From NCBI GenBank assembly GCA_030737835.1, contig CM060850.1, forward strand, positions 20,490,216 through 20,554,215: 64,000 nucleotides of DNA, written 5' to 3'. Below are positions 25,531 to 57,357 of this stretch, one piece after another. Under the pieces are notes generated by a model, which searched no databases, was not told the origin of the DNA, and saw only the letters and a program-made list of their open reading frames with translations. This DNA comes from Acorus gramineus (taxonomy: Eukaryota > Streptophyta > Magnoliopsida > Acorales > Acoraceae). The position numbers and the translations under genes were made by a program. The stretch's first letter is position 1. Every line of letters begins with the position of its first letter.

Positions 25531-27442
25531 GGCGCAGTGCGCGCGGTGCACCCGGGGCTGGGCGAGCGGGTGGTGCGAGCAGGCGATGCGAGCTGGTGGT
25601 GCGCGCGGGATGCTGCGAAGGGGCGCTGGGCGTGCGGGTGTGCGCGCGGGTTGCTGCGCTGGGGCGCAGTGAGCGCGCGGTGCACCAGTGGGGAGCTCGG
25701 CGGGGTGTCCGGGCGTGCAGGCTGGGCTCGGTCGTGCGACTGGGCGCGCGGGCTGAGGCGCGGCTGTGCGCCTGGGTAGGGTGGCTGTGCGTACGGCTGC
25801 CCGGGGGTTCGAGAGTGAGTCGGGGTGCTCGGGCTCGCGTGCGTACAGGCCGTATGTATGCTTGTCCAAGTGTTGTGTATTTTTAATGTATTTTTGTCGT
25901 ATTTGTGTATTTTACTCACCAAGTTGGTTACCCTATCTTGAAGATCTCGACGGACGGTCGCGCGACGACCCGGTCTTTGGTCAGTGGGACAATCCAACCC
26001 AGTTGGGAGGCGCTATACGCACTTGGGCGTATACCGTCCTCCCCTGGGGCACCGTAGTTGATATTAACCTGTGTAGTATGTAATCCATGCAGGCATGATT
26101 AATGTGTGGAATGCATGCCACCCTAGACTTTGTATGTTAGGGACTTGCACCCTTAGGATATGTGTAAGAGCCATGCATCCTGTCACCCTGTTCTCATGCT
26201 AGGAAGCCTCGGCCTATGCATGCGTCCTACTAGTTTAATTTATTAAATTAAATGCTAGCATATGATTATTAGCATGCCTTGTATAATTTGTATAATATTA
26301 TAGGGAGGGGCCTTGCGAGGTCAACATTGAGACCCGGGCTAGGGTACTCCGTGTTCCTTGTTTGGTTGTCGGGATGTCCTATATCGGGACCTCACGCTGC
26401 CCTCCCAAGGTTTCTTTTCCCAATAATATTATAACCCTGTTATTATTATAATATATGTTCCCCGCATCTTGGTTATGTGCCCTGGAGAAATTTTGAAGAA
26501 TTCATGGCATTAGAGTTGTTGTGATGTGTTGTCGGCGGATCCGAGTGGATCATATGCGATGGATAGGCTGTTCTGTTCCCTTCGTTGGATCCGTGTAGAG
26601 ACTGCCCCGGCGTTGAAAGGCTGTCCCGTGCAGGGGCTCCCATCAGTAGGCACCTCCTGATTTGGGACGGACTATGCTGAATGTGGGGGTGGCCGAACGG
26701 CCTACGGAGTGGGGAGAGACTATCGGTGGACCAAGGGTGACCATCAGCCTAGTCAGTCCCAATATCCTATGTCACCATATTGAGGGGTGAGGGTGAGGGT
26801 GTAGTGGGTTGGCGATAGCGACCCACTGGTTTGTAAGTCCCAATATCCTATGTCACCTATTGAGGGGTGAGGGTGAGGGTGTAGTGGGTTGGCGATAGCG
26901 ACCCACTGGATTTGTGTAGTTCCTGCCATTTTGTGGCTTGAATAATAAAATTGTGGTTAATAATATCTGGTGGTTAATATAGCTGTGATGCATGGGTTGT
27001 GCTGTTCACTGAGCGTGTGGCTCACCCCTCGCATAATTATTATTCTCTAGTGTCATCTGAGTCGGATCTGGAGGAGGAGCTCCCCGAGGGACTTCATCAG
27101 TAGCGGAGTAGCGCCACGTCCCGCGAGTATCAGAGGCTATCAGCATCCCTTTTGATTGTATGTGTTATATTCCGTGCTTGGGCACGCGTTTGTATGTTAT
27201 TTGGATGTCTTTGTATATATTGGCTCTCACAGGACAGTTGATTATGTATCGAGTCTGTAATATGTTTTGAATTACAGATTCAGTCTTTTAGCTTCCGCTA
27301 TTTGTGTATATATCATGTCAGCCCCTTTGTTGTCTGTGTTGAAAATTGTTGATGTTGTTATGGGTATATTATTGACTTCCTGTATTGACTGCTGATATCA
27401 TATATACACTTGCCGCGTCCCGGGGACGCCCGGGGCGTGACA
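25531..27442 (+). repeat. family-A 5' LTR, 5' truncated (A2)
   Basis: Begins inside the CpG-rich domain and ends GGGGCGTGACA. The micro-exon is at 25944-25979. Its acceptor reads AAG instead of CAG and its donor GTCAGT instead of GTGAGT, the only copy with both sites changed. Two G-tract/hairpin units lie at about 26785-26910 and CACTGAGCGTGTGGCTCACC at 27007. Confidence 0.88.
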
Positions 27443-27447
27443 AAAGT

Positions 27448-27460
27448 TGGTATCAGAGCC
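27448..27460 (+). other. primer binding site of element A
   Basis: TGGTATCAGAGCC, five bases after the LTR end. Complementary to initiator tRNA-Met. Confidence 0.9.
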
Positions 27461-27561
27461 TGGTCCTGTCAGAGCCAATGGTCTTCTTTTCGTAGAGATG
27501 AGTTCTAGGATTTCTATATGAGTATTCTGATCCTAGTGTCTGGTTTTCTTAGGTTGTTGAT

Positions 27562-28905
27562 ATGCCTCCTCGCAGAGGACGGCGCGGACATGGTCCCTCT
27601 CGACCTTTGGAGGTTTCCGGACCTACTAGAGGCGAGGATGCTACTGGAGAGTCCACGGCTGTGAGGCCAGGATCGGCGCAGGAGCCTCCCGCATGGGAAC
27701 GTGCGTTCGCTCGGATAGCGGATTTGGTGGAGACTCAGACCAAGGCACTGGAGGCCCAGACCAGAGTGTTGGTAGAGCAGGCGCGGGAGATTCAGGAGCT
27801 GAGGGCGGCCCGTGATGCAGTTCCACAGGTCCCCTTGGTGGCAGATCCGCCTGGTGTACCCGAAGTACCCCCAGTCCCCGTGGTGATTCCAGCGGCGAGA
27901 GTTCAGGATCCCCTGGCGAGGGAGGTGGGGCTAGAGGCTGCAGCGCGGGTGCAGCAGAGTGGCCTCGCAGCCTTTCTAAAGCTCCATCCTCCCGAGTTCT
28001 ATGGCCAGACGGCGGATCCCCTTGCCCCAGAGCGATGGTTGATGGAGGTGGATGCGATCTTCTCGACCATGCTCTGCACCGATCGCCAGCGAGTCTCCCT
28101 GGCCACCTTTATGCTGAAGGGTAGCGCTGCCGACTGGTGGGCTACCCGAGTGGTGGACATCCCCGAGGGAGTGGAGCAGCTTCTATGGGCAGGATTCCGG
28201 AGGTATTTCCTGGAGGAGTACTTCCCGTTCTCGACGCGGCAGATCGTGATGCAGGAGTTTGAACAGCTGACGCAGGGCTCTATGTCCGTCGCTGATTACT
28301 CCACGCGCTTCACGAGGCTTTCCAGATTCGCTCCAGCCTTGGTGATGGACGAGGAGACGCGGTGCCGTCGTTTCGAGCTTGGTCTCTGCAGCGCCATTCG
28401 GGTGCATGTCTCCTCCCAGGCTTTCTCGAGGTTCTCGGACTTGGTGTCTCGGGCGAAGACAGTCGAGCGAGACCTCGGGATCCTCGTAAGGGTTCCGCCC
28501 CCTTCTGCAGACCAGAGTCCTCCCAGGAGCCAGGACCAAGGACAGCGCAAGAAGAAGAGGCCCCGCTTTGATCTGTTAGCGGCTGCCTCTCCTCCAGCAG
28601 ATGTGGTGCCAGTGCGAGGTTCAGCACCCATTGCGGTGGTGCCAATCCAGGCCAGGCGACCGGAGACGCGGCGCTGCTACCACTGTCAGCGCATCGGGCA
28701 TATCTCGTATAATTGCCCAGATGCTGGCCGACCCCGTGTGCAGCCTCAGCGTCAGCAGCAGCAGCCACAGGGTGGCCGTATTGACCAGTGGAGGCAGCCA
28801 ATGCAGCCGGCGAGGCGTGCCCCTGCTCCTCAGCCGCAGTTCGTTCAGGGCAGAGTTGCAGCACTTTCGGCCGAGGAGGCGCAGGTTCCGGGCATCATGG
28901 TTTGA
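27562..28905 (+). CDS. gag polyprotein of element A (447 aa, intact)
   Basis: A single open frame from ATGCCTCCTCGC, a start shared with the family-B remnant at 37408. A basic N-terminus and a heptad-like helix (about residues 50-85, ETQTKALEAQTRVLVEQ) are followed by the gag capsid domain (PERWLMEVDAIFSTM to about residue 310, with ADWWATRV and FRRYFLEEYFP). A basic RKKKRPRF stretch comes next. Then the CX2CX4HX4C knuckle CYHCQRIGHISYNC (about residues 372-385) and a Gln-rich tail. Capsid forms particles and the knuckle binds RNA. The TGA at the end (GTTTGAGGT) probably replaced CGA, so the original gag-pol likely read on into protease. Confidence 0.93.
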   Translation: MPPRRGRRGHGPSRPLEVSGPTRGEDATGESTAVRPGSAQEPPAWERAFARIADLVETQTKALEAQTRVLVEQAREIQELRAARDAVPQVPLVADPPGVPEVPPVPVVIPAARVQDPLAREVGLEAAARVQQSGLAAFLKLHPPEFYGQTADPLAPERWLMEVDAIFSTMLCTDRQRVSLATFMLKGSAADWWATRVVDIPEGVEQLLWAGFRRYFLEEYFPFSTRQIVMQEFEQLTQGSMSVADYSTRFTRLSRFAPALVMDEETRCRRFELGLCSAIRVHVSSQAFSRFSDLVSRAKTVERDLGILVRVPPPSADQSPPRSQDQGQRKKKRPRFDLLAAASPPADVVPVRGSAPIAVVPIQARRPETRRCYHCQRIGHISYNCPDAGRPRVQPQRQQQQPQGGRIDQWRQPMQPARRAPAPQPQFVQGRVAALSAEEAQVPGIMV

Positions 28906-30367: not shown

Positions 30368-33300
30368 TGTTATATATGTGTCACTTTTAACCTTCTGGTC
30401 ACCATTGGAACATTCTGGTAGTTTTCAGTTTTTTTCGTTTTTCGATCGGAACCGCTAAAAATTTCAGGCTTTTAGCTATCACCCTGAGTTTGAGGGCTCC
30501 GATTGAAAATCTAACTGCATATTATGTGTCCTGGTGCCATTCCAAGCCGCTCACAAAAATTTCATCGAATTCCGGTAACGTTTCAGAATTTCACAGTTCC
30601 GAAGCGTATCCGGGTTTTGACCGAGCGAGAAGTCATTGGGAGAGTTGACTTGGTCAAAGTGGGCCCATGACTTGGTCAACCCCTTTTGTTTTTTTGTGTG
30701 GTTGGGTTGACCCAAGTCAAATCTCACTTAATCCCCTCTAATGCTAGCTTAAACCCTAATTAACCTAGCTTAACCTAATCTAAGTGAGGGGATTATATAT
30801 AAGTGAATCTAAAATATCTCCCCCACTATTCATCATCTTCCCCATTTGATTTTCTCTCTCCCCCTCTCTCTTTTTCTGGATTTTGACCTAGCTAGAGGGG
30901 TTAAAATCAAAAGCACAAAGAAGAGAAAGGTTAGATCTCATCCCGATCTATCCACCGGTGGTCTCGGATTCGAGTTCCCACGAGTTTGACCCCCTCTAAC
31001 ACCCTCTTTTCTTCTCTGATTTCAGCCCCCCTTGGGCTAGGTAGAGATCTTGGTGGTGGAGGTCTTTGGGGAGGTGTTTCGGTGCACGAAGAGCTCCTGA
31101 TCCCCTTCCCTTCCTTTCCTCTCCTAGGGTAAGCTTTCTTTCCTTCCTTTTCTTGCTTAGATGCTTGTTTAGGAGGTGTTTTGGGTGCTGGTGGCTGTGG
31201 GTGGTTGTTGGTGGCTGTTGGAGGCCATTGGTGGCCGGAGAGAGGTGGTAGAGTGGCTCGGGCAGGGTGGTAGGTTGGCTCGGGTGGGCAGGCAGCGCAG
31301 GCAGGCAGCGCAGGCAGGCTGGCAGGCAGGCTGGCAGGCGCAGGGCTGGGCGCTGTCGGGCGTGCGCGCGGGTGGAGCAGGGGTGTTCGGGTGCTGCGCG
31401 CTGGGCGCCGTGCGGGGGCGTGCGCGCGGGGCACTGCTCGAGGCGCAGGGTGTGCCATGCGCGCGGGGCCGCGTGCGGGTGCTATGCGCAGGGCGCCGAG
31501 CGGGGAGTGTGTGCGGGGCATTGCGCTAAGGCGCAGTGCGGGTTGGTATGCGTGCGGGGCGCTGCGCTAGGGCACAGTGCGCACGGGTGCCCCGGGGCTG
31601 GGCGAGCGGGTGGTGCAAGCGGGCGATGCGAGCTGGTGGTGCCCGCGGGGTGCGCGCGGGATGCTGCGAAGGGGCGCTGGGCATGCGGGTGTGCGCGCGG
31701 GTTGCTGCACTGGGGCGCAGTGAGCGCTCGGTGCACCGGTGGGGGGCTCGGCGGGGTGTCCGGGCGTGCAGGCTGGGTTCGCGGGCTGAGGTGCGGCTGT
31801 GCGCCTGGGTCGGGGTGCTCGGGCTCGCGTGCGTACAGGCCGTATGTACGCTTGTCCGAGTGTTGTGTATTTTTAATGTATTTTTGTCGTATTTGTGTAT
31901 TTTACTCACCAAGTTGGTTACCCTATCTTACAGATCTCGACGGACGGTCGCGCGATGACCCGGTCTTTGGTGAGTGGGACAATCCAACCCAGTAGGGAGG
32001 CGCTATACGCACTTGGGCAAATACCGTCCTCCCCTGGGGCACCGTAGTTGATATTAACCTGTGTAGTACGTAATCCATGCAAGCATGATTAATGTGTAGA
32101 ATGCATGCCACCCTAGACTTTGTATGTTAGGGACTTACACCTTAGGATATGTGTAAGAGCCATGCATCCTGTCACCCTGTTCTCATGCTAGGAAGCCTCG
32201 GCCTATGCATGCGTCCTACTAGTTTAATTTATTAAATTAAATGATAGCATATGATTATTAGCATGCCTTGTATAATTTGTATAATATTATAGGGAGGGGC
32301 CTTGCGAGGTCAACATTGAGACCCGGGCTAGGGTACTCCGTGTTCCTTGTTTGGTTGTCGGGATGTCCTATATCGGGACCTCATGGTGCCCTCCCAAGGT
32401 TTCTTTTCCCAATATTATTATAACCCTCGTTAATTATTATTATATATGTTCCCCGCATCTTGGTTATGTGCCCTGGAGAAATTTTGAAGAATTCATGGCA
32501 TTAGAGTTGTTGTGATGTGTTGTCGGCGGATCCGAGTGGATCATATGCGATGGATAGGCTGTTCTGTTCCCTTTGTTGGATCCGTGTAGAGACTGCCTCA
32601 GCGTTAGAAAGGCTGTCCCGTGAAGGGGCTCCCATCAGTAGGCACCTCCTGATTTGGGACGGACTGTGCTGTATGTGAGAGTGGCCGAACGGCCTACGGA
32701 GTGGAGGAGAGACTATCGGTGGACCAAGGGTGACCAACAGCCTAGTCAGTCCCAATATCCTATGTCACCATATTGAGGGGTGAGGGTGAGGGTGTAGTGG
32801 GTTGGCGATAGCGACCCACTGGTTTGTAAGTCCCAATATCCTATGTCACCTATTGAGGGGTGAGGGTGAGGGTGTAGTGGGTTGGCGATAGCGACCCACT
32901 GGATTTGTGTAGTTCCTGCCATTTTGTGGCTTGAATAATAAAATTGTGGTTAATAATATATGGTGGTTAATATAAGCTGTGATGCATGGGTTGTGCTATT
33001 CACTGAGCGTGTGGCTCACCCCTCGCATAATTATTATTCTCCAGTGTCATCTGAGTCGGAACTGAAGGAGGAACTCCCCGAGGGACTTCATCAGTAGCGG
33101 AGTAGCGCCACGTCCCGCTATCAGCATCCCTTTTGATTGTATGTATTATATTCCGTGCTTGGGCACGCGTTTGTATGTTATTTGGATGTGTTTGTATATA
33201 TTGGCTCTCACAGGACAGTTGATTATGTATCGAGTCTGTAATATGTTTTTTATTTACAGACTCAGTCTTTAGCTTCCGCTATTTGTGTATATATCATGTC

Positions 33301-33423
33301 AGCCCCTTTGTTGTCTGTGTTGAAAATTGTTGATGCTGTTATGGGTATATTATTGACTTCCTGTATTGACTGCTGATATCATATATACACTTGCCGCGTC
33401 CCGGGGACGCCCGGGGCGTGACA
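30368..33423 (+). repeat. family-A 3' LTR, full length 3056 bp (A3)
   Basis: TG at 30368, CA at 33423. In order: TATA box ATTATATATAAG (30792-30803); leader; donor CTAGG/GTAAGC at 31129; intron 1 (31129-31933) with a CpG-rich domain at about 31260-31820; acceptor TTACAG; micro-exon 31934-31969 (36 nt); donor GTGAGT at 31970. Then the GAGACCCGGGCTAGGG module (32280-32420), two G-tract/hairpin units (32770-32910), CACTGAGCGTGTGGCTCACC (33001), acceptor TTCTCCAG ending 33044, and the terminus GCGTCCCGGGGACG...GGGGCGTGACA. Splice roles are inferred from sequence only. Confidence 0.92.
30792..30803 (+). promoter_or_regulatory. TATA box in family-A LTR
   Basis: ATTATATATAAG upstream of a CT-rich leader (CTCTCTCCCCCTCTCTC). 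It would place the transcript start near 30830. Confidence 0.6.
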
Positions 33424-33535: not shown

Positions 33536-36500
33536 TGTTACGCCTGTGTCATTTGGAGCCATTTTGGTTAAGCCTTGCTCACATCTGTGTCATTCAGAAC
33601 CTTTATCTTTTTCTATCAGAGTCGCTAAAATTTTGGCTTTTAGCCACCTGCGGGAGTTAGAAAACGTTGATTGGAAATCTAACTGCATATTATGGGTCCT
33701 GGTATCGTTTTGTATTGCCCATAAATTTTTTATCGAATTCCGGTAACGTTTGGAAAAATATGTAGTTCCGAATCGTATCCTGGTTTTCGAGAGTACCTGG
33801 TTAGTCGAATAGTGTAAGATATTTTGGGGACCTTTGGTAACCTTACCCCCACCTTGCTTAGGGATGAAGAAACCTTTGGTTATTTGATATGTGAGTGGGT
33901 GAGCCTAACCCTAACCTCACCCCCCTTAAGGTCACCCCTAGGCACTATTTGGCATGAAAATGACTTTTTTGCCCTCTCTCTCTCTCTCCCCCTCTCTCCC
34001 ATTTCGTGGAACACCTTCTCTCCCTCTCTTGGTCGCTTTTTTTTCTCCTCTCTGTGTGTGAAGAAGGAGGAGGAAGAAGCAATTGAAGGAAAAGATGAAG
34101 AAGAAGCACAAGAAAGAGTGAGAAAGGGTGAGTATGTGTTGTTGTTGTTGTTGTTGTTGTTTCTCTTCTCTCTATCCCCTTCTCATGCCCCTTTGCACCC
34201 TGTTTTCTGCCATGAAGGGCTTGAGGAGATGCTGATGAGGTGGTGGTAGTGGTGGTGGTGGTTGAGGTGGTCGTGGGTGTGTCGAGAACCCCGCATCTCC
34301 CCATTTCCCTCCCCCTGTTTTGGTAAGGCAGCACTCTGTATTTTAAAGATCTCAGTGCATCTAGTATTTAGAGACACATTTTTAGGATTAAGTCTTACTA
34401 CGATATGATCATCTATGTGTCTAGTTGTTATATATGAAATTTGGCCTCATTATGATATCGGTGGTGTATGTTAGAACCTGTTTTGCATGGCCTGTCCAGA
34501 TTCGCGTAGGAATTGACCTGCTTCTGGAAATAATTTATTTCGGGCTTGTAGAAGCAAAATTAGGTTCTAATGTCTTCATGGATTATGATCCCAGCATATC
34601 AGAGAATGTGCATGTTTTATTTCATAATTTTTGGAAGTGTATTGGGTGCTGTGGAGATCAATTAGTAGGGCTGGTTGCTGCAGGTTTGGCAGTTTTGTTT
34701 GGTTGAGTGTCAAGGAGTTGTTTGCATGTGTCTTGTGTGATAATATGGAAGTATCAGGGGTTAGGGTCTTCATGAAGTAGGCTTATATGTGTGATAGGAG
34801 GTTCCATAATTTAATTATGAATCATTGGTTGTGTTTTGCAGATCTCGTAGACCAGACGCGCGGCGATCCGGGTATCAGTGAGTGGTTTGATCCAACCCTT
34901 CGGGAAGCGTTGGATGCACGTAGTCGTGCGTCGTGCATCCGTTGGGCACCCTGACTATACTACTTAATTAGATAAGTAGTATGGTCATGTCTAACTCATA
35001 ATATGTTAGATATCTTGCATGCTAGGCTTATATTGCATGTATTGTATCCATGTATGAATGACTGTATCGCATGCGCCCCTCTAGTATGGGCATGTATTCT
35101 GTAATGTGTATAGATGTATAGAATATGACATGCCTTAGGTAGTATTGTAATACTACTCCCACCATATTAATTGGAATATCCAACATGATTAAGTCTGGGT
35201 TAATAACGGGCACCTGCCTAATATTCCCTTGCGATAAGACTCGAGGGCGTGGTGTAGTTGTTGCGCCCATGCTAATGGGGCAAGGCTATGACCAACTTCA
35301 TGAGATGATGATCTCTCTCGCCCTCTCCCTCTGCACGAACTGAGTAAGTAGATGTGATTTCCTACTCGACTCAGGTTCGTTTGGAATATTGGCATGCACC
35401 TGTTAAGTGCGCGAGATTTGCACTTGACCCTTACCTTTTAAGTTGGTGATATCCAACGCATGCTTAAGTTAGGCCTTGTGTGCTTATGTGATTAATGGCC
35501 ATGTATGCATGTTGTATGATTTATTATGATGTAAATCCATGTTAGGGAGTATCCCTATAATTATTTGATAAGTTATCGTGCATGTAGTTCATGTACATAA
35601 CTAAGATATAATTCTCCTGGATATATATGCGCATGTTAAAACTGATTAGGCCTATCTGAAATAGGCGTGGGCATGACCCGTTGTTGGGTTGTACCTTATT
35701 AGTTAGAGCGCTAGCGATGTAATCGCCCCTGTGCATCTGAGCGATGCACTCGTTTGGAATTCAGGAGAATTCATTATCTTATCGATTTTGTTAAGCCGGT
35801 AGTTGTGGCATTAAGCTAGGCCTACCCGTGTTAGGCGTGTATATGAACCGCCTGTTGGGTTATGTGCCTTGGGATTATTTCTGCGTGAGAGCAGAGGCAA
35901 CCCCCTTGTGTTCGAGCGACGCAACCGTGTGGGAGTACAATAGTATTTGATATCATCGATATTTGATTATTGAGAGTAGTTGTATGTCCATTGGGATCGC
36001 TTTGTGGATATGGAATGTTTACTCCCAATGTCGTCCGGGTTGAAGAGGCCCGGGTTGTAGCTGTCCTGACAGAGGGCTCCCATCCGTAGGTACCACCGAT
36101 ACGTTCGGGAGCGTACTGATCGTGGGAGTGTACTAGGTAGAGGCTACCCGGGAGAGGGTTAACGAATGATATTGCAAGCGTGGAATTGTTCTCCCCTTCG
36201 TTGGATCCGATGTAGGAACTTCCCGGTGTTGGAAAAGCTGTCCTAACAGAGGGCTCTCATCCGTAGGTACCACCGAGGCGTTCGGAAGCGTACTGATCGT
36301 GGGAGTATACCAGGTAGTGACTACCCGGGGAAAGGGCTACCGGTGGACCAAGGGTGTAGAGGAGTCTAATCTCTCCAAAATATCTATGTCACCTATAAAG
36401 GGTGAGGGTGAGGATGAGGTGAAGACACGTCGCCTCGTGACCCATTCGTTGTTCGTCCGTTCCCATAGTTGTTGGGTCCGGTCTCGTATCGATGTTCAAA

Positions 36501-37292
36501 GACATCGTTGGGCAGTTATCTCGATGTAGAAGATCCAGTAGTGTTGCGTAGACCAATAATCCCGGGTCTCCTCGACCAACGGTATGGTCTCTCCCCAAAA
36601 GTCCCAAGAGTCTCCCTTCGGGAGTGAGGGTGAGGGTGAGGTCGGTGATCCAATAGTGTTGTATGGACCAGTAATCCCGGGTCTCCTCGACCAACGGTAT
36701 GGTCTCTCCCCAAAAGTCCCAAGAGTCTCCCTCCGAGAGTGAGGGTGAGGGTGAGGTTGGTCGCGCCGCCGCGTGACCCTGTTATCCATGGGTTTCCACC
36801 CATGTTTACCTTGAAAGGAAATTGTTTATGCATTGAACTGCTGTATGGTGATTGGTTTCCAGCCACTCACTGAGCTTGTAGCTCACCCCTCGCATACTGT
36901 TTCTTTTGAGGGGCAGTGTTGGGCGTGGAGCTGGAGCTTTCCTGTGGCGGTGTCTTATGGGCGTGGAGCGTTCTTCCAACGGGTGGCGAGTGCGAGGCTG
37001 TCAACAGTCCTAGAGTCATTGTATGTATTGTAAATCGTGCATGTGGCACAGGTTGTATTTTCTTTGGTCTAGACTTGGCTCTCACAGGACAGTGATTGTG
37101 TATTCGAGTCTGTAATAATGTTTTTGGTTTACAGACATTGTTTATATATTATGCTTCGCTTTTCAGTCAGTTATCATTATCCTTGCTTTGCCACCTTGTG
37201 TGTTGTTGTTGGAGTCTTTATTGACCTCAGGTATTGATAGCTGATATTTTATTATTGCCACGTCTTGGGGACGGCCGCCCTGGGGCGTGACA
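33536..37292 (+). repeat. family-B 5' LTR (3757 bp)
   Basis: Starts TGTTACGCCTGTGTC and ends CTGGGGCGTGACA. Donor TTTTG/GTAAGG at 34323, intron 1 34323-34841, acceptor TTTTGCAG, micro-exon 34842-34877 (36 nt), donor GTGAGT at 34878. Two tandem duplications: about 177 bp (36060-36330) and about 120 bp (36530-36760, containing GAGGGTGAGGGTGAGG). CACTGAGCTTGTAGCTCACC lies at 36867. A (TTG)n run is at about 34139-34160. Confidence 0.93.
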
Positions 37293-37297
37293 AAAGT

Positions 37298-38394: not shown

Positions 38395-41302
38395 TGTTAT
38401 ATATGTGTCACTTTTTACCTTCTGGTCACCATTGGAGCATTCTGGCAGTTTTTCAACTTTTTCTTTTTTCGATCGGAACCGCTAAAATTTTGGACTTTTA
38501 GCTATCATCCTGAGCTTGAGGACTCCGATTGAAAATCTAACTGCATATTATGTGTCCTGGTGCCATTCCAAGCCACTCAAGAAAATTTCATCAAATTCCG
38601 GTAACGTTTCAGAATTTCACAGTTCCGAATCGTATCCGGGTTTTGACCAATCGAAAAGTCATTGGGAGACTTGACTTGGTCAAGGTGGACCCATGACTTG
38701 GTCAACTCTTTTGTTTTCTAGTGTGGTTAGGTTGACCCAAGTCAAAGTGCACCTAAACCTAACCTAAACCTAGCTTAACCTAATTTGATTCTAAGTGTAA
38801 GTGAGTGTGTGTGTGTGTGGTGAGTGTGTGTGCTTTAAGTTGGGCGTCCCCCTCTAATCCCCTCCCCTATTCATCTTCTCCCCCATTTCAAGCTTTCAAA
38901 AGCTCTCACCTCCCTCTCTTTAAATCCCCCATTTGATCTAGCTAGAGGTGTTGGATTGAAAAACCCTAGAAGGAGAAAAGCTTGGTAAGGACCCGATCTA
39001 CCTTTCCATGGTCTTGGAATTGTTTTCCCTTTTGTTTTTCCTCCTCTCATGGCACCTTTTCTCCTCAGCTTTCAGCCTTGCTAGGGCTGAGTGGAGATCT
39101 TGGTGGTGGTGGTCTTGGAGGTGGCGAATCGGTGCGCGAAGAGCACCCGATTTCCTCCCCTTCCCTTCCTCTCCTTGGGTGAGCTTTCTTTCCTTCCTTT
39201 TCTTGAGTAGATGCTTGTTTAGGATGTATTTTTGGGTATGCATGGCTGTTGGGGGGCTGATGGGGGCTGTTGGGGGTTTGGGGCGGCTCGGGCGCATGCA
39301 GGATCATCCCTGCGCGTGTGCGCGGGCCTGTGCGCGCAGGCAGGGCAGGGAGCTGTCAGGCGAGCTGGTGTCGGGCGCGCTGGGCGCGTGCGGTCGGGCG
39401 CGCTGGGCGCGTGCTGTCAGGCGCGCTGGGCGCGTGCTGTCGGGGGCTCTGGGGGTGTGCGCGAGGTGCTGCGCGGGGGGCGCAGTGCGCCGGAGCGATG
39501 CGCAGGGGCGCAGTGCGTGTGGTGCGCGCGGGGAGGTGAGCGGGCGTGCGCGCGGGGTGCGTGCGGGGTACTGCACTGGGGCACAGTGTGTGCGGGTGTG
39601 CGCGCGAGGTGCTGCGCTGGGGCGCAGTGCGCGCGGGTGCACCCGGGGCTGGACGCGCGGTGCGCGCGGGCGCATGCGAGCGTGCGGCGTGTCTGGGCGT
39701 GCGGGCAGGGGCTCGGCAGCGTGTCTGGGCGTGCAGGCAGGGGCTCGGCAGCGCGTCTGGGTGCGCGGGCTGGGGTGCGACTGTGCACCCGAGGCGGGCG
39801 TGCGTGCATGCACACCCGTGCGTGCGCGTGCGGGTGGCCGTGCGCATGGCTGCCGGGGGGGGGTTCGGGAGTGAGTCGGGGCACTCGGGCTCGCGTGCGT
39901 GCGGGCCGTATGCACGCTTGTCCGAGTGTTGGGTATTTTTAGCGTATTTTGTATGTATTGTGTATTTTACTCACCGTTTTGAATACCCTGTCTTGCAGAT
40001 CTTGACGGACGGTCACGCGACGACCCGGGTATTGGTGAGTGGGACAATCCAACCCAGTAGGGAGGCGTTCTATACACTTAGGAGTGTATTGCCCTCCCCT
40101 GGGGCACCATAGTTGCATATTAATTTGTATTAAGTATAACTATGCATGCATGATTATTATATAGTATCCATGCCACCCTAGACCCTGTATGTTAGGGATA
40201 CTTGCCCCTTATGATATGTATAAAGGCCCATGCATCCTGATACTATGTTTTCATGCTAGGAAAGCCTCGACCTACGCATGTGTCCCATTTAGTTTAATTT
40301 ATTTAAATCAAATGCGAGTTATTGGTAATAAGCATGCTTAGTGAATATTATAACCTTGTGGTTATAATATAGGCTTCCCCGCATCTTAGTTATGCGCCCT
40401 GGAGGAATTCACGCGAATTCATGACATTATTTAGTGTTACCATCGGTGTCGACGGATCCATGAGGATCATATCCGTGTGACTAGACTGTCTTCTCCTTAT
40501 TGCTTGGATCTGATGTAGGTACTCCCCGGCGTTAGACAGGCTATCCTGATAGAGGACTCCCATCAGTCTGCACCTCCTGATTTGGTTTCGGACTGTGCTG
40601 AATCGTGGGAGTATATCAGGCAAGCTACGGAGCGGGGAAAGGGCTACCGGGTGGACCAGGGGTGGGAAAGCAGTCTAGTATGCCCCAAGAGGCCTATGTC
40701 ACCCATCGGAAAGGGGTGAGGGTGAGGGTGAGGGTGAGGGAAGGGAAAAGTGGGTTGGCGTTGAGACGACCCACTAGATTGTGTAGTTGCTCCCGTGTTA
40801 AGGGCTATGAATATTATATGGTTAATATGAATTGTGATGTATGGGTTGTGCTATTCACTGAGCGTGTGGCTCACCCCTCGCATATATTTTTCTCCAGTGA
40901 TATCTGAGTCGGATCTGAAGGAGGAGCTCCCCGAGGTACGTCAGCAGTAGCGGAGCAGCGTCGCGTTTCTGCTAGTGAGAGGCCATCAGCATCCCCCCCC
41001 CTTTCATTGTATGTATTGTATTCCGTGCTTGGGCACACGCTTGTGTTTTTGGATGTCATTGTATATATATATATTGGCTCTCACAGGACAGTTGATTATG
41101 TATCGAGTCTGTAATATGTTTTTGAATTACAGATTCAGTCTTTTAGCTTCCGCTATTTGTGTATATATCATGTCAGCCTCTTTGTTGTCTATGTTGTCAT
41201 TGTTGATATTGTTTCGAGTATATTATTGACCTCCTGTTTAGACTGCTGATATCATATATACCATTTGCCGCGTCCCGGGGACGGCCACCCTGGGGCGTGA
41301 CA
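38395..41302 (+). repeat. family-A solo LTR, + orientation (A6, 2908 bp)
   Basis: TG...CA with the duplication TTTTC (38390-38394, 41303-41307). Donor CTTGG/GTGAGC at 39179, CpG-rich domain about 39290-39900, acceptor CTTGCAG, micro-exon 39999-40034 (36 nt), donor GTGAGT at 40035. A four-repeat GTGAGG run (40714-40740) and hairpin follow, then CACTGAGCGTGTGGCTCACC at 40857. It lacks the GAGACCCGGGCTAGGG module of A1-A4. Confidence 0.95.
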
Positions 41303-42930
41303 TTTTCAGCCAAGGAGGAGGCTGAGGAGAGGCTGAGGAGGTGGTGGTAGTGGTGGTGGCGGTTGAGGTGGTCGCGGGTGCATCGGGGGCCCCCGAGCCT
41401 CCCCCTTTCATTTCCCCTCCAAAGGTGAGCCTTTCCCTTTCTTTTCTTGATTTTTATGGCTTAGGGTTGATTGGGAGGGTAATGCATGCTAGGTAGATGT
41501 GTTAGGGTGTGTGTGAGGGGTTGGGAAGGGTTAAAATGGGGTTAGGGTTGGCTGGGTGCACGTTTCGGGTCGTCTGCGTGCGTGCGCGCGCAGGCGCACG
41601 CGCAGGCAGGCGCTGGCGGATGAGCAGACGCGCGCGGGTGCGTGCGCGCGAGTGCGTGGGTGAGCGCGGGAGTGCGCGTGGGTGCTCGCGGGTGCTGGCG
41701 CGAGCAGGGGTGCGCGCGGGAGCTGGCGCGAGCGAGAGTGCGCGCGAGCGTGCTCGCGTGCGGGGCAGTGCGCCTGGGCACGGGGCTGGGGACCAGTGCG
41801 CGTGCTGGGGCGTGCGCGGGGTGCTGTGGGAGGGCTCATGGGCTGGACGAGCAGTGCACGCGGGCGCACGGGAGCGTGCGCGCGCCTGCGACAGCGCGTC
41901 TGGGCGCGCGGGCAAGCGCGCGGCAGTGCGCCGATGGTGCTGGGGTGCGTGCGTGCGTGCATGCGCATTCATGTTTTCTATGTGTAAATTGTGTTGTTAC
42001 TCACCAAATTGGATGCCCCTACCTTGCAGATCTCATCGGATGGGATGCGCGAGGTCCCGGGTTGTAAGGTGAGTGGTTCGATTCCAATCCCCCCCCCCCC
42101 TCTCTAGGGATGCGCTTGACCCGCATAGACGCGCGTCGCGCATCGATGGGCCCCCCTAGCTATAATATGTAAATCTATGCATTCATGAATATTATGTTGT
42201 ATCCATGCCACCTTAGGCTTGCATGCTAGGGATATGCACCCTTATATCATATATAGAGGCCTATGCATGTCTAGATACCATGTCCCTTAATTGGAAATCC
42301 CCGAACTATGCATGTTCCCATCCAATTTAATCTAATTAAATCAAAATGAGAGCATATAGTTACAAGCATGCCTTAGAGAATATTTATAATCTTGTTGTTA
42401 TAATATATGTTTCCCCGCATCTTAGTTATGCGCCCTGGAGGAATTCTTGAGAATTCATGACATTAGTAGTGTTAGAAATCGTTGTCGACGGATCCAACAA
42501 GATCATACGCGCATGAGTAGGCTGTCTTCTCCTTTTGGTTGGATCCGATGTAGGAACTCCCCAGCGTTGGCTGACCTGACAGAGGGCTCCCGTCCGTAGG
42601 TACCTCCGATGTGTCGGACAGTACTGGTAGTTGGAGTGGACTAGGTCGAGGCTACGAGGGTGGGAAAGGGCTACCGGGTGGACCAGGGGTGGAGAGCGGT
42701 CTAGTCTGTCCCAAAAGACCCATGACACCCCTAAAGGGTGACCATGGGGTATATCGGCGATGTTACGACCCTCTAACTTGTGTAGTTACTCCCGTATAGG
42801 GACTATGACTACTTTAAGGTTAATATGAGTGTGTTGATTGTTGTTATGCCTGTGTTTGATATCTCGATAAGCGAGTATCGAGAGTGGTTGTTTTCCATTG
42901 GGTTTCACTTTGCGAACATGGGATCGTTCT

Positions 42931-45900
42931 TGTCACGCCCCAGGGCGGCCGTCCCCGTGACGCGGCAAGTGTATATATAATATCAGAATCTACACAGGAG
43001 TTCAATAATATACCATAAACAAGCAACTAGAATGACACACAGACAACAAGGAGGCTGACATGATATATACACCAAATGCGGAAGCGAAAGACTGAATCTG
43101 TAAATAAAACATACTACAGACTCAATACACAATCATCTCTCCTGTGAGAGCCAATATACACAATATACAACTGAATATATACAAACGCGTGCTCAAGCAC
43201 GGAAATAAAATACATACTGCCAAAAAGGGATGTTGATAGCCTCTAACACTCGCGGGACGTAGCGCTACTCCGCTACTGAAGGAATCCCTCGGAAGGCTCC
43301 TCCTGCTGATCCGGCTCAGTGGCAACTAGAGAAAACATATGCGAGGGGTGAGCCACACGCTCAGTGAACAGCACAACCCATGCATCACAGCTATATTAAC
43401 CACAATTAATTAAAAACCAGCCTCATAGTGGCATAACATCATAAATCCAGTGGTTCGTACATCGCCGAACCACCACACCCTCACCCCTCAATGGGTGACA
43501 TAGGATATTGGGGCTGACTAGGCTGTTGGTCACCCTTGGTCCACCGATAGTCTCTCCTCCACTCCGTAGGCCGCTTGGCCTTCACCCACAACTTCAGCAC
43601 AGTCCGTCACAAATATCGGGAGGCGCCTACTGATGGGAGCCCTCGAAAGGGACGGCCTTTCCAACGCTAGGGCAGTCTCTACACGGATCCAACGAAGGGA
43701 AACAGAACAGCCTATCCATACGCATATGATCCACTCGGATCCGCCGACCACACATCTCTACAACTCTAATGCCTTGAATTCTTCAGAATTCCAACAGGGC
43801 GCATAACCAGGATGCGGGGAAACATGCGTTATAATAATAAAGAGGTTGGAATATTAACAGGGAAAGAATCCTTGGGAGGGCAGCGTGAGGTCCCGATATA
43901 GGACATCCCGACAACCAAACAAGGAACACGGAGTACCCTAGCCCGGGTCTCACCGCTGTCCTCGCGAGGCCCCTCCCCTATAATATTCACTAAGACAGGC
44001 TAATAATCACATGCTCGCATTTTATTTAAACAATTAAACTAAATGGGAACATGCATCGGTCGGGGCTTTCCTAGCATGGAAAACATGATAACAGGGTGCA
44101 TGGTTCTTATACGGGTCCTAAGGGTATAAGTCCCTAGCATACGAATCTAGGGTGGCATGCATACTACATATTATCATGCTTACATGGTTTTCATATTAAA
44201 CGGGTTAATATTTACTATGGTGCCCCAGGGGAGGACGGTACACGCCCAAGTGCATGTAACGCCTCCCTACTGGGTTGGATCGTCCCACTCACTGGTATCT
44301 GGGTCGTCGTGCGACCGTCCGTCAAGATCTGCAAGATAGGTATTTAATACGGTGAGTATAATCCACAAATACCACAAAAACACTCTAAAAGTACCCAACA
44401 CTCGGGCAAACGTACATACGGCCTGTACGCACGTTAGCCCGAGCACCCCGACTCACTCCCGCACCCTCGGCAACCACCCGCACGGTCACCCGCCCCCGGA
44501 TGCACCGCCGCGCCTCAGCCCGCGCACCCAGAGCACCGCCGGGCCCCTGCCCGCCGCCTGGACACGCCGCCGAGCTCCCCGGGTGCACCGCGCGCCCACT
44601 GCGCCCCAGCGCAGCAACCCGAGCGCACACCGCATGCCCCGCGCGCCAAGCGCCTCGCCCCGCGCGCACCTCCGCTGCCCTCGCCTCGCTCCGCGCGCAC
44701 CCCGCGCGTACCACCGCTTGCATCACCCACTCGACCAGCCCCGGGTGCACCTGTGCGCACTGCGCCCCAGCACAGCGCCCCGCACGCGCACCCCACCCGC
44801 TCACCTCACCGCGCGCACGCCTGCGCCTCTGCCAGCGCCCCGCGCGCATGCTCCTGCACGGTGCTCAGCGCCCAGCGCCCCAGCGCCCAGCACCCTTGCC
44901 CAGCACACCCACGCCCAGCACCCATATCCGTGACCCAGCGCCCGGCACTCAGCGCCCAGCACCTGGGACCCTCACCCAGCGCCCACGCGCACGCCCGGCA
45001 ACATGCGCCCAGCGCGCCTGGCAGCACGCGCCCAGCGCGCCTGCCAGCCTGCCCGCGCTGCCTGCCTGCGCGCATCACCGAGTGGCCCGAGCACCGCTCG
45101 CCTGCACGCCCGGGCACTGCCCGCCTGATGCCCGAGCACCTCCTACCCAGCACGCCTGCGCGCCTAGCCTGCCTGCCCGGCCTGCCAGCGCGCACAGCCC
45201 AGCCAGCCTACCCCGCACGCCTCCCCCTGCACCCCCCGAGCGCACGCCCGCGCGCACGCGCTCGCGCGCCCGGCAATCTGGTGCGCCTGCTCCCAGCCTA
45301 CCCGGGACAGCTAGCCTCCCTGCCCGGGACTGCCTATCTCCCTACCCGACCACCCAACTCCTACCACCCCCCCCATGGCCTCCGACCACCACCCACAGCC
45401 CTCCGACGGCCACCCACAGCCACCGACCGCCTCCCAACCCCAAAACCATCATCCTAACAAGCATCTATGCAAGGAAAGAGAGGAAAAAGGGCTTACCAAG
45501 GGAAAGCAAGGATGCTCGGTTGCTCTCCGCGCACCGAAACCTCTCCCCAAAGGCCTCCAACGCCGGGATCTCCCTTGGCCCTCGAAATGGCCCAAATCAG
45601 GGGAGAAAAGAGGGGGGATGAAGGGGCCAAACTTCTCGGAATTCAAATCCGAGAACACCGGGGCGTAGATCGGGACCCGATCTAGCCTTTCTATGATTTA
45701 GGTTTTGAGTTCTAAGCACTCTAAGGGGCTCAAAAGCTTGAAAAAGAGAGAGGGGGAGAGAGAAAATGTTTTGGAGAAGACAATGAATAGTGGGCAACCT
45801 TTTTGCTCTCTTTAAATAGTCAACTCACTTGGATTAGGGCTAATCAAGATTAATTAGGGCTTAAGCTAGGTTTAGGTTAACTTAGGTGAGGTTTGACCCT

Positions 45901-47444: not shown

Positions 47445-50400
47445 TGTTGTGCCTGTGTCATTTGGAGCGCTCTGTTTGAAGATTTTGGGTACATAATTTT
47501 TTTCGTAAGTTATGTATTTTCAATTTGCCATTTGGATTTGATTTTGTAAAAATCCAAGATGAAGAGATTTAATTCTGATTTTATTATGAGATGTCCAGTT
47601 TTGAGTTGGATTTCGCACAGAGGTGGAATTAGATCAACTGGATTCTTGTAGTAAAAGTTACGGGTATTCTTCCAAGTGTACCCCGGGGATGGAAATTCTG
47701 GCAGCAGCCCTGTTCCATGTTTGGCTCTAAATTCGGAATAGCTGGAGAGGTTATTTGATCATGTCATAAACATAAAAGTTGTAGATAATCTTCTTAGCTT
47801 TCCATCAGTTTTGGAATTGAGCCATTCGGAGCTGTATCGAGGAAGTTATGGCTGTTCCAGTGAAGCTTGCGCAGAATTTCTAGTCGGAGGGCGACTTAGT
47901 AATTTTCCTTGATATTTGTGATAAATATCTCCTCTCTCTCTCCCTTCCCCTCTCACTTCCGACCAGAATTCTGGTCCCCCTTCTCTCTTTTCATTTGCAC
48001 CCCAAGTGTTTGATGATTTGTTTCAAAGAGAAGGAGGAGGTGGTGGTGGAGGTGGTGGTGGATCTTGGCTAGGTTTGGTTGTTGTTTGTTCTCCCCTCTC
48101 TCAAGCTCTCTTTGCATGATCTCCCCCCCTGTTTTTGCTGCCATAGAGGGCTGAAGAGGAGGCTGAGGAGGCTGAGTGGTGGTGGTGGTTCCGGGTGGCG
48201 GCGTTTCGGTGCGCGAAGGGCCCCGAACCTCCCCCTTTCTTTTCCCTCCCAAGGTGAGCTCCTCCCCTCCTTTTCTTGATTTTTTTGGCTTGATGGGTTG
48301 GTTGGGAGGTCATGCATGTTGGGTAGGTGTGTTAGGGAGTGTGTGAGGGGTTGGGATGGGTGAAAATGAGGTTAGAGTGGGCTGGGCGCGCGCTGGGCGT
48401 GGTCTGCGCGCGGGCGTGCGGGTACGCGCGGGTGCTGGCGTGAGCAGGGGTGCCAGCGGGGGTGCGCGCGGGCGCGCGCGTGCGGGCGGGGCGCCTGGGC
48501 ATGTGCCTAGGCGCTGGGCAGGGCACCTGGGCACTACGCCTGGGTGCTGGGCAGGGCGCCTGGGCATGCGCCTGGGCGCGGTGCTGGGGACCAGTGCGTG
48601 CGCGTGCGTGCGGTGCGTAGAGGCGCGCGGGTAGGCGCGCGGCAGTGCGCCGATGGTGCCGGGGTGTGTGCGTGCGTGCGCGTGCGGGGGGCACTGTGCG
48701 CGCAGGGCGAGCAGGCGGTGCGAGCGGGGAATGTGTGCGGGGCGCTGCGAGGGCGCGCGGGGTGCAGGCGCGGTGCGCGCGGGTGCACCCGGGGTGCGCG
48801 CGGGGCGAGGCACTGCGTGCGGGAGCGCGCGGGGTGCTCGCGGACCGGCGCAAGACGTGCGGGGATTCGCGGCGGTGCACCCGGGCGGTGGCCGGCCGTG
48901 CGGGTGGTTGCCGGGGGCCGTGCGGGTGGTTGCCGAGGCCGCGGGTAGTTGTTGGGGATGTGTTGGATGCTTGTTGTGCGTTTGGAGTGTTGGGTATTTT
49001 TAGTGTATTTTATGATATTTGTGGATTAATACTACCAAATAATGTCTGTCTTGCAGATCTAGACGGACGGTCGCGCGTCGACCCAGATACTGGTGAGTGG
49101 GACAATCCAACCCAGTAGAGAGGTGTTATACGCACTTGGGCGTATACCGACCTCTCCTGGGGCGCCATGGATGAATATTAACCTGCAATAATATGTATCC
49201 ATGTAAGCATGATTAATCTGTAGTATGCATGCCACCCTAGTATTTGTATGCTAGGGACTTTACCCTTAGGATATGCATATGAGCCTTGCAGCATGTCCCC
49301 TGTTTCCATGCTAGGAAACCCGACCTATGCATGTTTCCCATTAGTTTAAATTGTTAAATAAAATGTGATCATATGATTATTTGCCTGTCTTAGTGAATAT
49401 TATAGGGGAGGGGCCTCGCGAGGACAGCGGTGAGACCCGGGCTAGGGTACTCCGTGTTCCTTGTTTGGTTGTCGGGTATCCTATGTCGGGACCTCACGCT
49501 GCCCTCCCAAGGATCTTTCCCCCAATAATATTCCACCCTTGTTATTATATGATCTGTTTCCCCGCATCTTGGTTATGCGCCCTGGAGGAATTCTGAGGAA
49601 TTCATGACATCAGTAGAGTCTCCCTTCTCTGGATTAAAGGGCCTTGCGAAGTCAGCGTTGAGACCCGGGCTAGGGTACTCCGTGTTCCTTGTTTGGTTGT
49701 CGGGGTATCCTATATCGGGACCTCACGGTGCCCTCCCAAGGTTTCTTTTCTTTAGTTAAGGATTTCAGCGGATCCGAGTGGATCATATGCGATGGATAGG
49801 CTGTTCTGTTCCCTTCGTTGGATCCTGTAGAGACTGCCCCAGCGTTAGACAGGTTGTCCCGTGCAGGGGCTCCCACTAGTAGGCGCCTCCTGGTTTGATG
49901 AAGGACTGTGCTGAACATGGGAGTGGCCAAACAACCGCGGAGTGAGGAGAGACTATCGGTGGACCAAGGGTGACCAACAGCCTAGTCAGTCCCAAAATCC
50001 TATGTCACCCGTCGAGGGTGAGGGTGAGGGTGTAGTGGGTTGGCGATGAGCGACCTGCTAGTTTTGTTTATGGTTGATTGTAAGTCCCAATATCCTGAGT
50101 CCCTTGTTGAGGGGTAAGGGTGAGGGTATGATCTGGGTTATGGAAATTGTGAATTGAAATGGATTAATATGTTGTGGTCAATATTGTCTGTGATGCATGG
50201 GTTGTGCCGTTCACTGAGCGTGTGGCTCACCCCTCGCATATGTTTTTCGCCGGAGCTGGAGCCGGAGCAGCAGTTGGAGCTTTCCGAGGGATTTCTTCAG
50301 TAGCGGAGCAGCGCCACGTTCCGCGAGTGCCAGAGGTTATCAGCATCCCTTCTTGACTGTATGTATTTGATTTCCGTGCTTGGCACGTGTCTGTATATAT

Positions 50401-53619: not shown

Positions 53620-56600
53620 TGTTATGCTTGGAGCCATTTTGGTTAAGCCTTGGTCACCTTTGTGCGCCATTCAGGGCCTTTTTCTTTTTCGATCTGAGTC
53701 GCTAAAATTTTGGCTTTTAGCCACCTACGGGAATTCTAACTGCATATTATGGGTCCTGGTACCGTTTAGTACTACCCATAAAAATTTCATCGAATTCCGG
53801 TAACGTTTTGAAAAATATGCAGTTCTGAACCGTATCCGGGTTTTAAGAGTTCCTGGTTGGTTGAATAGTGTGAGATATTTTGGGGATGTGGTGACCTTTG
53901 GTAACCTTACCCCTACCTTGCTTAGGGATGAAGAAACCTTTGGTTATTTGATATGTGAGTGGGTGAGCCTAACCCTAACCTTACCCCCCACTTAAGGTCA
54001 CCCCTAGGCACTATTTGGGCATGAAAATGACTTTTTTGCCCTCTCTCTCTCCCCCTCTCTCCCATTTCGTGGAACACCTTCTCTCCCTCTCTTGGTCTCT
54101 TTTTTTTCTCCTCTTTGTGTGTGAAGGAGGAGGAAGAAGCAATTGAAGGAAAGATGAAGAAGAAGCACAAGAAAGAGTGAGAAAGGGTGAGTATGTGTTG
54201 TTGTTGTTGTTGTTGTTGTTTCTCTTCTCTCTATCCCCTTCTCATGCCCCTTTGCACCCCTGTTTTCTGCCATGAAGGGCTTGAGGAGATGCTGATGAGG
54301 TGGTGGTAGTGGTGGTGGTGGTTGAGGTGGTCGTGGGTGTGTCGAGAACCCCGCATCTCCCCATTTCCCTCCCCCTGTTTTGGTAAGGCAGCACTCTGTA
54401 TTTTAAAGATCTCAGTGCATCTAGTATTTAGAGACACAGTTTTAGGATTATGTCTGCATATGATATGATCATCTATGTGTCTAGTTATTATATATGAAAT
54501 TTGGGATCATTATGATATATGTGGTGTATGTTAGAACCTGTTTTGCATGTCCTATCCAGATTCACGTAGGAATTGATCTGTTTTAGGAAGTGATTTATTT
54601 CGGGCTTGTAGAGGCAAACTTAGGTTCTAATGTCTTCATAGATTATGATCCCAGCATATCAGAGAATGTGCACGTTTTATTTCATAATTTTTGGAAGTGT
54701 ATTGGGTGTTGTGGAGATCAATTAGTAGGTCTGGTTGCAGCAGGTTTGGCGATTTTGTTTGGTTGAGTGTTAAGGAGTTGTTTGCATGTGTCTTGTGTGA
54801 TAATATGGAAGTATCAGGGGTTAGGATCTTCATGAAGTAGGCTTATATGTGTGATAGGAGGTTCAGAATTTAATTATGAATCATTGGTTGTGTTTTGCAG
54901 ATCTCGTAGACCGGACGCGCGGCGATCCGGGTATCGGTGAGTGGTTTGATCCAACCCTTCGGGAAGCATTGGATGCACGTAGTCGTGCGTCACGCATCCG
55001 TTGGGCAACCTGACTATACTACTTATCTAAATAAGTAGAATGGTCATGTCTAACTCATAATATGTTAGATATCTTGCATGCTAGGCTTATATTGCATGTA
55101 TTGTATCCATGTATGAATGACTGTATCGCATGCGCCCCTCTAGTATGGGCATGTATTCTGTAATGTATATAGATGTATAGAATATGACATGCCTTAAGTA
55201 GTATTGTAATACTACTCCCACCATATTAATTGGGATATCCAGCATGATTAAGTCTGGGTTAATAACGGGCACCTGCCTAATATTCCCTTGCGATAAGACT
55301 CGAGGGCGTGGTGTAGTTGTTGCGCCCATGCTAATGGGGCAAGGCTATGACCAACTTTATGAGATGATGATCTCTCTCGCCCTCTCCCTCTGCACGAACT
55401 GAGTAAGTAGATGCGATTTCCTACTCGACTCAGGTTCATTTGGAATATTGGCATGCACCTGTTAAGTGCTCGAGATTTGCACTTGACCCTTACCTTTTAA
55501 GTTGGTGATATCCAACGCATGCTTAAGTTAGGCCTTGTGTGCTTATGTGATTAATGGCCATGTATGCATGTTGTATGATTTATTATGATGTAAATCCATG
55601 TTAGGGAGTATCCCTATAATTATTTGATAGGTTATCGTGCATGTAGTTCATGTACATAACTAAGATATAATTCTCCTGGATATATATGCGCATGTTAAAA
55701 CTGATTAGGCCTATCTGAAATAGGCGTGGGCATGACCCGTTGTTGGGTTGTACCTTATTAGTTAGAGTGCTAGCGATGTAATCGCCCCCGTGCATCCGAG
55801 CGATGCACTCGTTTGGAATTCAGGAGAATTCATTATCTTATCGGTTTTGTTAAGCCGGTAGTTGTGGCATTAAGCTAGGCCTACCCGTGTTAGGCGTGTA
55901 TATGAACCGCCTGTTGGGTTATGTGCCTTGGGATTATTTCTGCGTGAGAGCAGAGGCAACCCCCCTTGTGTTCGAGCGACGCAACCGTGTGGGAGTACAA
56001 TAGTATTTGATATCATTGATATGTTATTATTGAGAGTAGTTGTATTTCCATTGGGTTCGGTTTACGGACATGGAATGTTTACTCCCAATGTCGTCCGTGT
56101 TGAACAGGCCCGTGTTGTAGTTATCGTGACAGAGGGCTCCCATCTGTAGGTACCACCGATGCGTTCGGGAGCGTACTGATCGTGGGAGTGTACCAGGTAG
56201 AGGCTACCCAGGAGAGGGCTAACGAATGATATTGCGAGCGTGGAATTGTTCTCCCCTTCGTTGGATCCGATGTAGGAACTTCCCGGTGTTGGAAAAGCTG
56301 TCCTGACAGAGGGCTCCCATCCGTAGGTACCACCGAGGCGTTCAGAAGCGTACTGATCGTGGGAGTATACCAGGTAGTGACTACCCGGGAAAGGGTTACC
56401 GGTGGACCAAGGGTGTAGAGGAGTCTAATCTCTCCAAAATTCCTATGTCACCTTTAAAGGGTGAGGGTGAGGATGAGGTGAAGACACGTCGCCGCGTGAC
56501 CCATTCGTGGTTCGTCCGTTCCCATAGTTGTTGGGTCCGGTTGCGTATCGATGCTCAAAGACATCGTTGGGCAGTTATCTCGATGTAGATGATCCAGTAG

Positions 56601-57352: not shown

Positions 57353-57357
57353 ACAGG

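Follow-up and report, generated by a model that had tools for sequence, protein, structure and literature searches.

Tekay-like chromoviruses of Acorus gramineus probably carry a multi-exon spliceosomal leader that lies almost wholly within the long terminal repeat (LTR), with splicing dividing a gag messenger from a genome that keeps intron 2. The leader would run, in order, through exon 1 (with intron 0 inside it), intron 1, exon 2, intron 2, exon 3, intron 3 and gag (Table 1). Some RNAs do lose introns 0 and 1 by splicing, and several times such RNA has gone through LTR-type reverse transcription and integration, leaving LTRs from which these introns are precisely missing.

The window, the whole 64-kb stretch of DNA that was analysed, corresponds to G000:C4:20490216-20554215 of a 398.6-Mb Acorus gramineus assembly. 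The same species was the source of seven of ten gag relatives in a protein search, and LTR/Gypsy elements make up 28.0% of the Acorus genome according to the consulted part of PMC10281966. Positions 27553-28905 of the window hold a zinc-knuckle gypsy gag, as expected of a Tekay/Del chromovirus (Pfam Retrotrans_gag, 2e-16; zf-CCHC, 2.7e-4), and one related, internally short element matched SH3_Tf2-1 at 1.6e-26 and Chromo at 0.0033, the latter under the curated cut-off. In front of gag stands TGGTATCAGAGC, which we take to be a primer-binding site of tRNA-Met type; exact LTR/primer-binding site junctions number 2,666 genome-wide. From the gag, the chromodomain hint, the long LTR and the type of primer-binding site, we infer that the elements are Tekay-like Ty3/gypsy chromoviruses. 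The LTR at 30368..33423 is immediately preceded by a purine-rich tract, AAGGGGGGAAGAA, and the start of its exon 1 was provisionally placed at a conserved CACTATTCATC.

Table 1. Features of the leader and its surroundings, in window coordinates.
Feature	Position	Strand	Basis
Family A LTR, 3' LTR by its flank; TGTTATATATGTG ... GGGGCGTGACA	30368..33423	+	sequence
Candidate TATA-like box ATTATATATAAG	30792..30803	+	sequence
Exon 1, ends CCTAGG/GTAAGC; holds intron 0 site	30824..31128	+	alignment, 22 unspliced copies
Intron 1, G-rich	31129..31933	+	exactly missing from 11 LTRs elsewhere in the genome
Exon 2, 36-nt block	31934..31969	+	left border by intron-1-less LTRs; right border predicted
Intron 2 (predicted), donor GTGAGT, acceptor TTCTCCAG	31970..33044	+	conserved sites
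Hairpin, imperfect in the 31934 copy, ~18 nt past the exon-2 donor	31988..32037	+	folding z
Exon 3 (predicted), ends GATT/GTATGT	33045..33138	+	conserved sites, ATG count
Exon 2 of 5' LTR; acceptor AAG and donor GTCAGT, both changed	25944..25979	+	sequence
Exon 3 of 5' LTR	27051..27157	+	sequence, ATG count
Intron 3 (predicted), GTATGT ... TTTTCTTAG; primer-binding site within	27158..27552	+	acceptor context, ATG count
Primer-binding site TGGTATCAGAGC	27448..27459	+	sequence
gag; ATG 9 nt past predicted acceptor	27562..28905	+	Pfam, acceptor context
Exon 2, family E, LTR ~33553-37296	34842..34877	+	sequence
Exon 2, family B	39999..40034	+	sequence
Exon 2, 39-nt form	42030..42068	+	sequence
Exon 2	44293..44328	-	sequence
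Exon 2	49057..49092	+	sequence
Exon 2, second LTR of family E	54901..54936	+	sequence
Exon 2	61332..61367	-	sequence

The leader was approached through a short block that a sequence-only reading of the window had reported nine times in LTRs of three families. All nine copies were recovered, with a length of 36 nt in eight and 39 nt in the other, and, as that reading had stated, CAG precedes and GTGAGT follows the block in every copy but the one at 25944. The donor it had placed 0.5-1.2 kb upstream is of G/GTAAG or G/GTGAG type in all eight copies that retain the region, at distances of 789, 803, 805, 820 and 1168 nt, about 520 nt in both family E copies and 605 nt in the 42030 copy. Its downstream acceptor held for six of the nine, where a YAG occupies the expected place (CTCCAG in 31934, 39999 and 49057; TCTAG in 25944 and 44293; TTTTCAG in 54901), but has been lost from the 61332 copy (CTCCAA) and the 34842 copy (GAG), and was not found in 42030; L017 also lacks the exon-3 acceptor. 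Allowing up to one mismatch, the 14-mer pattern was matched 10,172 times genome-wide and its reversed form 42 times; CAG/ATCTNGACGGACGGTC occurs 6,933 times. The 28 loci listed, which represent 21 distinct places and were selected by the 14-mer pattern, have CAG before the block and GTGAGT after it. Over 29 copies, mean column identity is 0.93 at -10 to -1 against about 0.6 at -60 to -11, giving a left border that is sharp at the acceptor, while identity of about 0.8 continues for some 70 nt past the donor, to about +110. Conservation of the block thus does not exceed that of both its flanks.

If RNA lacking intron 1 was once reverse-transcribed, some LTR should read the end of exon 1 followed by ATCT. 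A genome-wide search with the junction pattern Y-N8-GG/ATCTNGACGGACGGTC returned 22 matches, and the reversed control none. Eleven of these read ..TTGCGG and are CAG>CGG mutants; in the other eleven, ends of exon 1 (such as CCTCCCCTTGG) are fused to the block and intron 1 is exactly absent, the precise GT-AG removal expected of a spliceosomal intron. All eleven have exon 1 upstream and GTGAGTGG.. downstream, with intron 2 retained. The LTR 5' end, TGTTATATATGTG, is present in every one, and the 3' end was reached within 1.5 kb of sequence in six. Wherever both flanks are present, target duplications of 5 bp were found, in four insertions: GTAGG at L031 and L050, which share the same flank and are one insertion, duplicated; TGGAG at L040; GGTTT at L045; and GTATA around L044+L059, an element with a primer site, gag and two LTRs, both of which carry the junction and which are 96.3% identical over 1,442 nt. 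A spliced junction therefore occurs together with hallmarks of the copy's own integration (LTR 5' ends and 5-bp duplications), as in the spliced integrated copies of L1 discussed below. Only about 3.4 kb, containing gag and the integrase end, lies inside the spliced LTRs of the latter element (L059:310-3680), which was perhaps mobilised in trans or later deleted. The L045 copy (G000:C63:1883296) is an intron-1-less solo LTR inserted where intron 2 begins in an apparent second copy.

Seven of the eleven intron-1-less copies (L031, L032, L038, L040, L042, L044 and L050) are also without about 100 nt of exon 1, and the missing stretch lies between GT and AG. Where L032 reads GAAAAGCAAG/CCCTTCC, the 61332 copy reads GAAAAGCAAG/GTATTG...TTTTCAG/CCCTTCC, so that this stretch, intron 0, has likewise been removed precisely from GT to AG. 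It is missing from none of the 22 unspliced copies in the alignment (Fisher p 8e-5, on counts scored by eye from alignments). A motif check found the intron-0 core in 19 of 21 unspliced copies scored and, among the intron-1-less copies, in L029, L034 and L043 only; L045 retains its 3' part, as judged by eye. In exon 1 of family E no clear intron-0 acceptor was seen.

The intron-1-less copies are not a single lineage. In a quick tree of 59 copies the spliced state takes nine changes, at least eight of them forced by well supported branches, although three rows are long-branched, the 42030 copy stands among the spliced ones and the exact number of changes is unsure. A single origin does not fit, and the scatter of spliced copies indicates that splicing recurred in several families. 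The proposal that a spliced leader was kept across families is thereby established for the upstream intron, through the intron-1-less LTRs, and for intron 2 it continues to depend on conserved sites and ATG depletion. An empty site predating a late insertion of intron 1 would give an equally precise junction, but such a history of the eleven copies is very improbable: they are scattered among intron-bearing ones with the forced changes just described, intron 0, elsewhere in the LTR, is missing from seven of them, and family E has intron 1 at the corresponding position. Still harder to credit is the suggestion that the splice-like words are chance or functionless ancestral sequence in copies that are merely closely related. 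Copies are indeed similar throughout within a family, and at three mismatches the window holds no significant excess of 14-mer matches (10 against 5.8 expected, with 8 of 100 shuffles reaching 10); the precise excision in eleven copies already contradicts this suggestion for intron 1, and the sites recur in family E, which is set apart by a branch of 1.13 changes per column.

Among copies otherwise exact, the acceptor A of exon 2 is changed in 26 unspliced copies as against 6,933 in which it is intact; a 27th match with this change is the spliced L040 and was excluded. Comparison with changes of an exon A (26 vs 984) was rejected as an unclean measure, the exon change listed being nearly always to G, which looks like a subfamily variant. 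Toward the 3' end of intron 1, 16 of 22 copies have a branch-point-like CTCAC.

Introns 2 and 3 are likely also removed from RNA. The right border of the 36-nt "micro-exon" and the removal of intron 2 are suggested by conserved sites together with ATG depletion. The exon-3 acceptor could be scored in 19 of 22 copies, and in all 19 a CTCAC lies within 50 nt of it, followed by a variable pyrimidine tract and YAG; family E2 has the same layout. The last exonic base at the exon-3 donor is T, and TGTATGTAT follows exon 3 in most copies. The motif TTAG/G(T/G)TG(C/T)T.AYATG, with its predicted acceptor 9 nt before the gag ATG, is common to A-type and E-type elements, TTAG being present in 21 of 23 copies and TTGG in two, while the sequence preceding it differs between the two types. 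The distant family E shares with the others the end of exon 1 with its donor, exon 2 with its donor, and the gag acceptor; its exon-3 acceptor is present in E2 and L073 and lost in E1. By eye, the ACTCACC that precedes the acceptor might pair with the donor GGTGAGT, but this word is more simply read as the branch-point-like CTCAC. A poly(A) site was discarded as the reason for intron 2, AATAAA/AATAAT being inconsistently placed in 19 copies.

The distribution of ATG triplets follows the predicted exons and introns. Relative to letter shuffles (in 22 copies for exon 1 and 19 for intron 2; the counts of exon 3 and intron 3 omit L069 and one E copy, leaving 20 of 22), ATG was observed 14 times in exon 1 against 74.3 expected, twice in exon 2 against 7.6, and once in exon 3 against 29.2, with none against 16.1 in its first 60 nt. 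Intron 1 holds 162 (174.7 expected), intron 2 holds 623 (376.7 expected) and intron 3 holds 180 (142.2 expected). A ribosome scanning the fully spliced RNA would therefore meet few ATG before gag, while unspliced RNA would present it with many. A contrary observation is that 6 of 22 unspliced copies, and 4 of 6 spliced copies scored, have an ATG in exon 1, and family E has several there. The weight once given to block lengths that are multiples of three is affected as well: the lengths of 36 and 39 nt are as reported, but count for little, since with so few ATG in exons 1-3 of the families counted no reading frame through them is needed. That exons 2 and 3 encode a small peptide or an N-terminal extension, with the length of exon 2 kept for frame, would agree with a single frame that, judged by eye, stays open through both in family A, and with several synonymous differences in exon 3; the scarcity of ATG, and an exon 3 start that is 11 nt shorter in one subfamily and breaks the frame, make it improbable.

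Just past the exon-2 donor lies a candidate structural element. The 65 nt beginning at +15 fold with a minimum free energy z below -2, relative to letter shuffles, in 50 of 54 copies. Compensatory double changes, some of them confined to a single copy, occur in six of nine consensus pairs. The consensus fold, at -3.5, is lower by only about 2 sd than those of column-shuffled alignments (mean -0.8, sd 1.2), the lowest of which, at -7.0, falls below it, so that support from covariation is modest. Exon 2 itself was rejected as a stable hairpin (mean z +0.6, none of 54 below -2), and an Rfam search of window positions 22000-64000 gave no matches up to an E of 1. Retroviral packaging signals often sit just past a splice donor, and from its place alone we would guess that the hairpin may be a packaging element.

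Loss of intron 2 was sought with several junction patterns. The exon2/exon3 pattern gave eight matches genome-wide, all unspliced copies with GAC>GAG. For exon 2 without a following G, no intron-2-less copy was present among the matches listed (100 of 173), and in 98 of these the first base is altered or shifted and TGAGTGG or TGAGTAG follows; this pattern omits T at the eighth base, including common exon-3 starts, and those starts are covered by the exon2/exon3 pattern. Exon 3 without A at -2 gave 23 matches, 22 of which still have the pyrimidine tract, their acceptor being altered or displaced, and the exon3/gag junction with exon 3 ending in T gave one, with a changed acceptor; CAG followed by the exon-3 start occurs 3,230 times. 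Two candidates were dismissed: C54:323972 (L060), a possible intron-2-less copy, is unspliced with a local change, and G000:C64:2040045 (L089), a possible exon1/exon3 copy and the remaining one of the 23 matches, has exon 3 attached to an internal point of exon 1, away from the predicted splice sites. The latter retains intron 0 and arose perhaps by template switching. C3:5398727, which with L060 makes up the two odd copies among the 100 listed, carries an internal repeat past exon 2. Loss thus stands at 11 of 6,944 for intron 1 and 0 of 6,509 for intron 2 (p = 0.001, or one-sided p = 0.005 when eight events are counted), values that are a guide only, as the search patterns differ.

The lack of intron-2-less copies in these searches is predicted by the favoured model and equally by intron 2 never being spliced. 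In the latter case only introns 0 and 1 would be real, GTGAGT would be part of a structured RNA serving packaging, dimerisation or 3'-end formation, and the leader would be unspliced after exon 2. This we regard as unlikely, though a serious competitor: the sequence past the block is kept in all eleven intron-1-less copies, the unspliced exon-2/donor sequence occurs 6,501 times with no intron-2-less counterpart found, and the stable hairpin recurs at the stated frequency. It leaves unaccounted for the strong donor, the branch-like CTCAC, the variable pyrimidine tract with YAG and the ATG-poor exon 3, found also in E2, and it would put the many ATG of intron 2 before gag. An alternative route to an LTR without intron 1 and with intron 2 is copying from the RNA 3' end: were polyadenylation to occur within intron 2, the last exon would consist of exon 2 together with the first part of intron 2, which would explain the asymmetry between the two introns without a packaging signal.

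In the model of a fully spliced leader, which we prefer, the messenger would additionally lose introns 2 and 3, its ATG-poor leader would bring the ribosome to the gag ATG and, being without the primer-binding site and the hairpin, it could not be copied. Only RNA retaining introns 2 and 3 would be the genome. Reverse transcription ought to purge introns from the LTRs, and we propose that thousands of copies still have them there because only such RNA is copied. Intron 1 would leak away occasionally, loss of intron 2 not being seen. A stricter version holds that a packaging hairpin and the primer site both belong to leader introns, three to four in number and mostly in the LTR, making spliced RNA purely gag messenger and RNA keeping introns 2 and 3 purely genome, and that the introns are kept in LTRs because RNA without intron 2 or 3 cannot be copied; we advance it tentatively, judging it somewhat more apt to fail than to hold. 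Intron 0, the probable third intron before gag, the ATG-poor leader and the hairpin past the donor had all escaped the sequence-only reading.

Deltaretroviruses and foamy viruses have their major splice donor in R of the LTR and keep unspliced RNA for packaging; they place only a donor there, whereas the Acorus element has a complete intron, with both sites, in the LTR. Human L1, of the non-LTR class, is copied starting from its 3' end, and BARE1 of barley is a copia element. L1 yields spliced integrated copies, SpIREs, and in the consulted part of PMC5860796 these resemble the Acorus copies in that the 5' untranslated region is spliced and spliced copies integrate as rare, mostly dead-end members. 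Unlike those of L1, the Acorus introns sit in the LTR, so that splicing altered both LTRs of a new copy, and their sites are kept by element families. BARE1 has separate RNA pools for translation and replication, its spliced RNA encoding Gag only (PMC3735527, in the part consulted); the proposed model would likewise have separate pools and a spliced RNA that favours Gag, but the Acorus introns lie in the leader before gag, several in the LTR. Spliced Gag mRNAs of LTR elements are also described from triticale seed, where GAG-RNAs with one intron are nearly all copia and the single gypsy GAG-RNA is intronless (PMC7765848, consulted portion).

Plant LTR elements are generally without introns, Ogre and EVADE being the exceptions given in the consulted part of PMC12786077. 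Like EVADE shGAG and Ogre, the Acorus elements are plant LTR elements with functional spliceosomal introns, but for EVADE and Ogre the introns are described in the coding region, with the protease domain named (passages of PMC12786077 and PMC6317226). For introns inside plant LTRs, we found no report in the literature searched, and none are described in the portions consulted of PMC4558846, PMC10281966, PMC10282084, PMC7765848, PMC9289625, PMC2832683, PMC6317226 and PMC7010299. The division of one retroelement transcript between translation and replication is, in the section of PMC3735527 consulted, a major question, and one element making separate messenger and genomic RNAs would provide a testable case. 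In this abundant Acorus element group, whole introns lie inside repeats that are rebuilt by reverse transcription at every jump. Loss of intron 1 and not, as searched, of intron 2 offers a way to test how splicing and packaging are linked, in part with nothing but genome sequence, in any plant with Tekay elements. Acorus itself is sister to all other monocots.

Intron 1 has a GC content of 0.71 and a GC skew of 0.36 over 22 copies; it is G-rich and of low complexity (31129-31933 and equivalents), a candidate for G-quadruplexes or R-loops, and its long minus-strand ORFs look like artefacts of composition. Elsewhere in the window, an ORF at 18252-18851, which presumably resembles the C-terminal part of a NAC transcription factor, gave no match in a Pfam search, and positions 3753-6207 hold remnants of a copia-like pol in several frames (by eye), one ORF among them being without a Pfam match. 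The two family E LTRs, at 33553-37296 and 53628-57356, are 3.7 kb each and 94% identical, and about 16 kb of nested LTRs lie between them.
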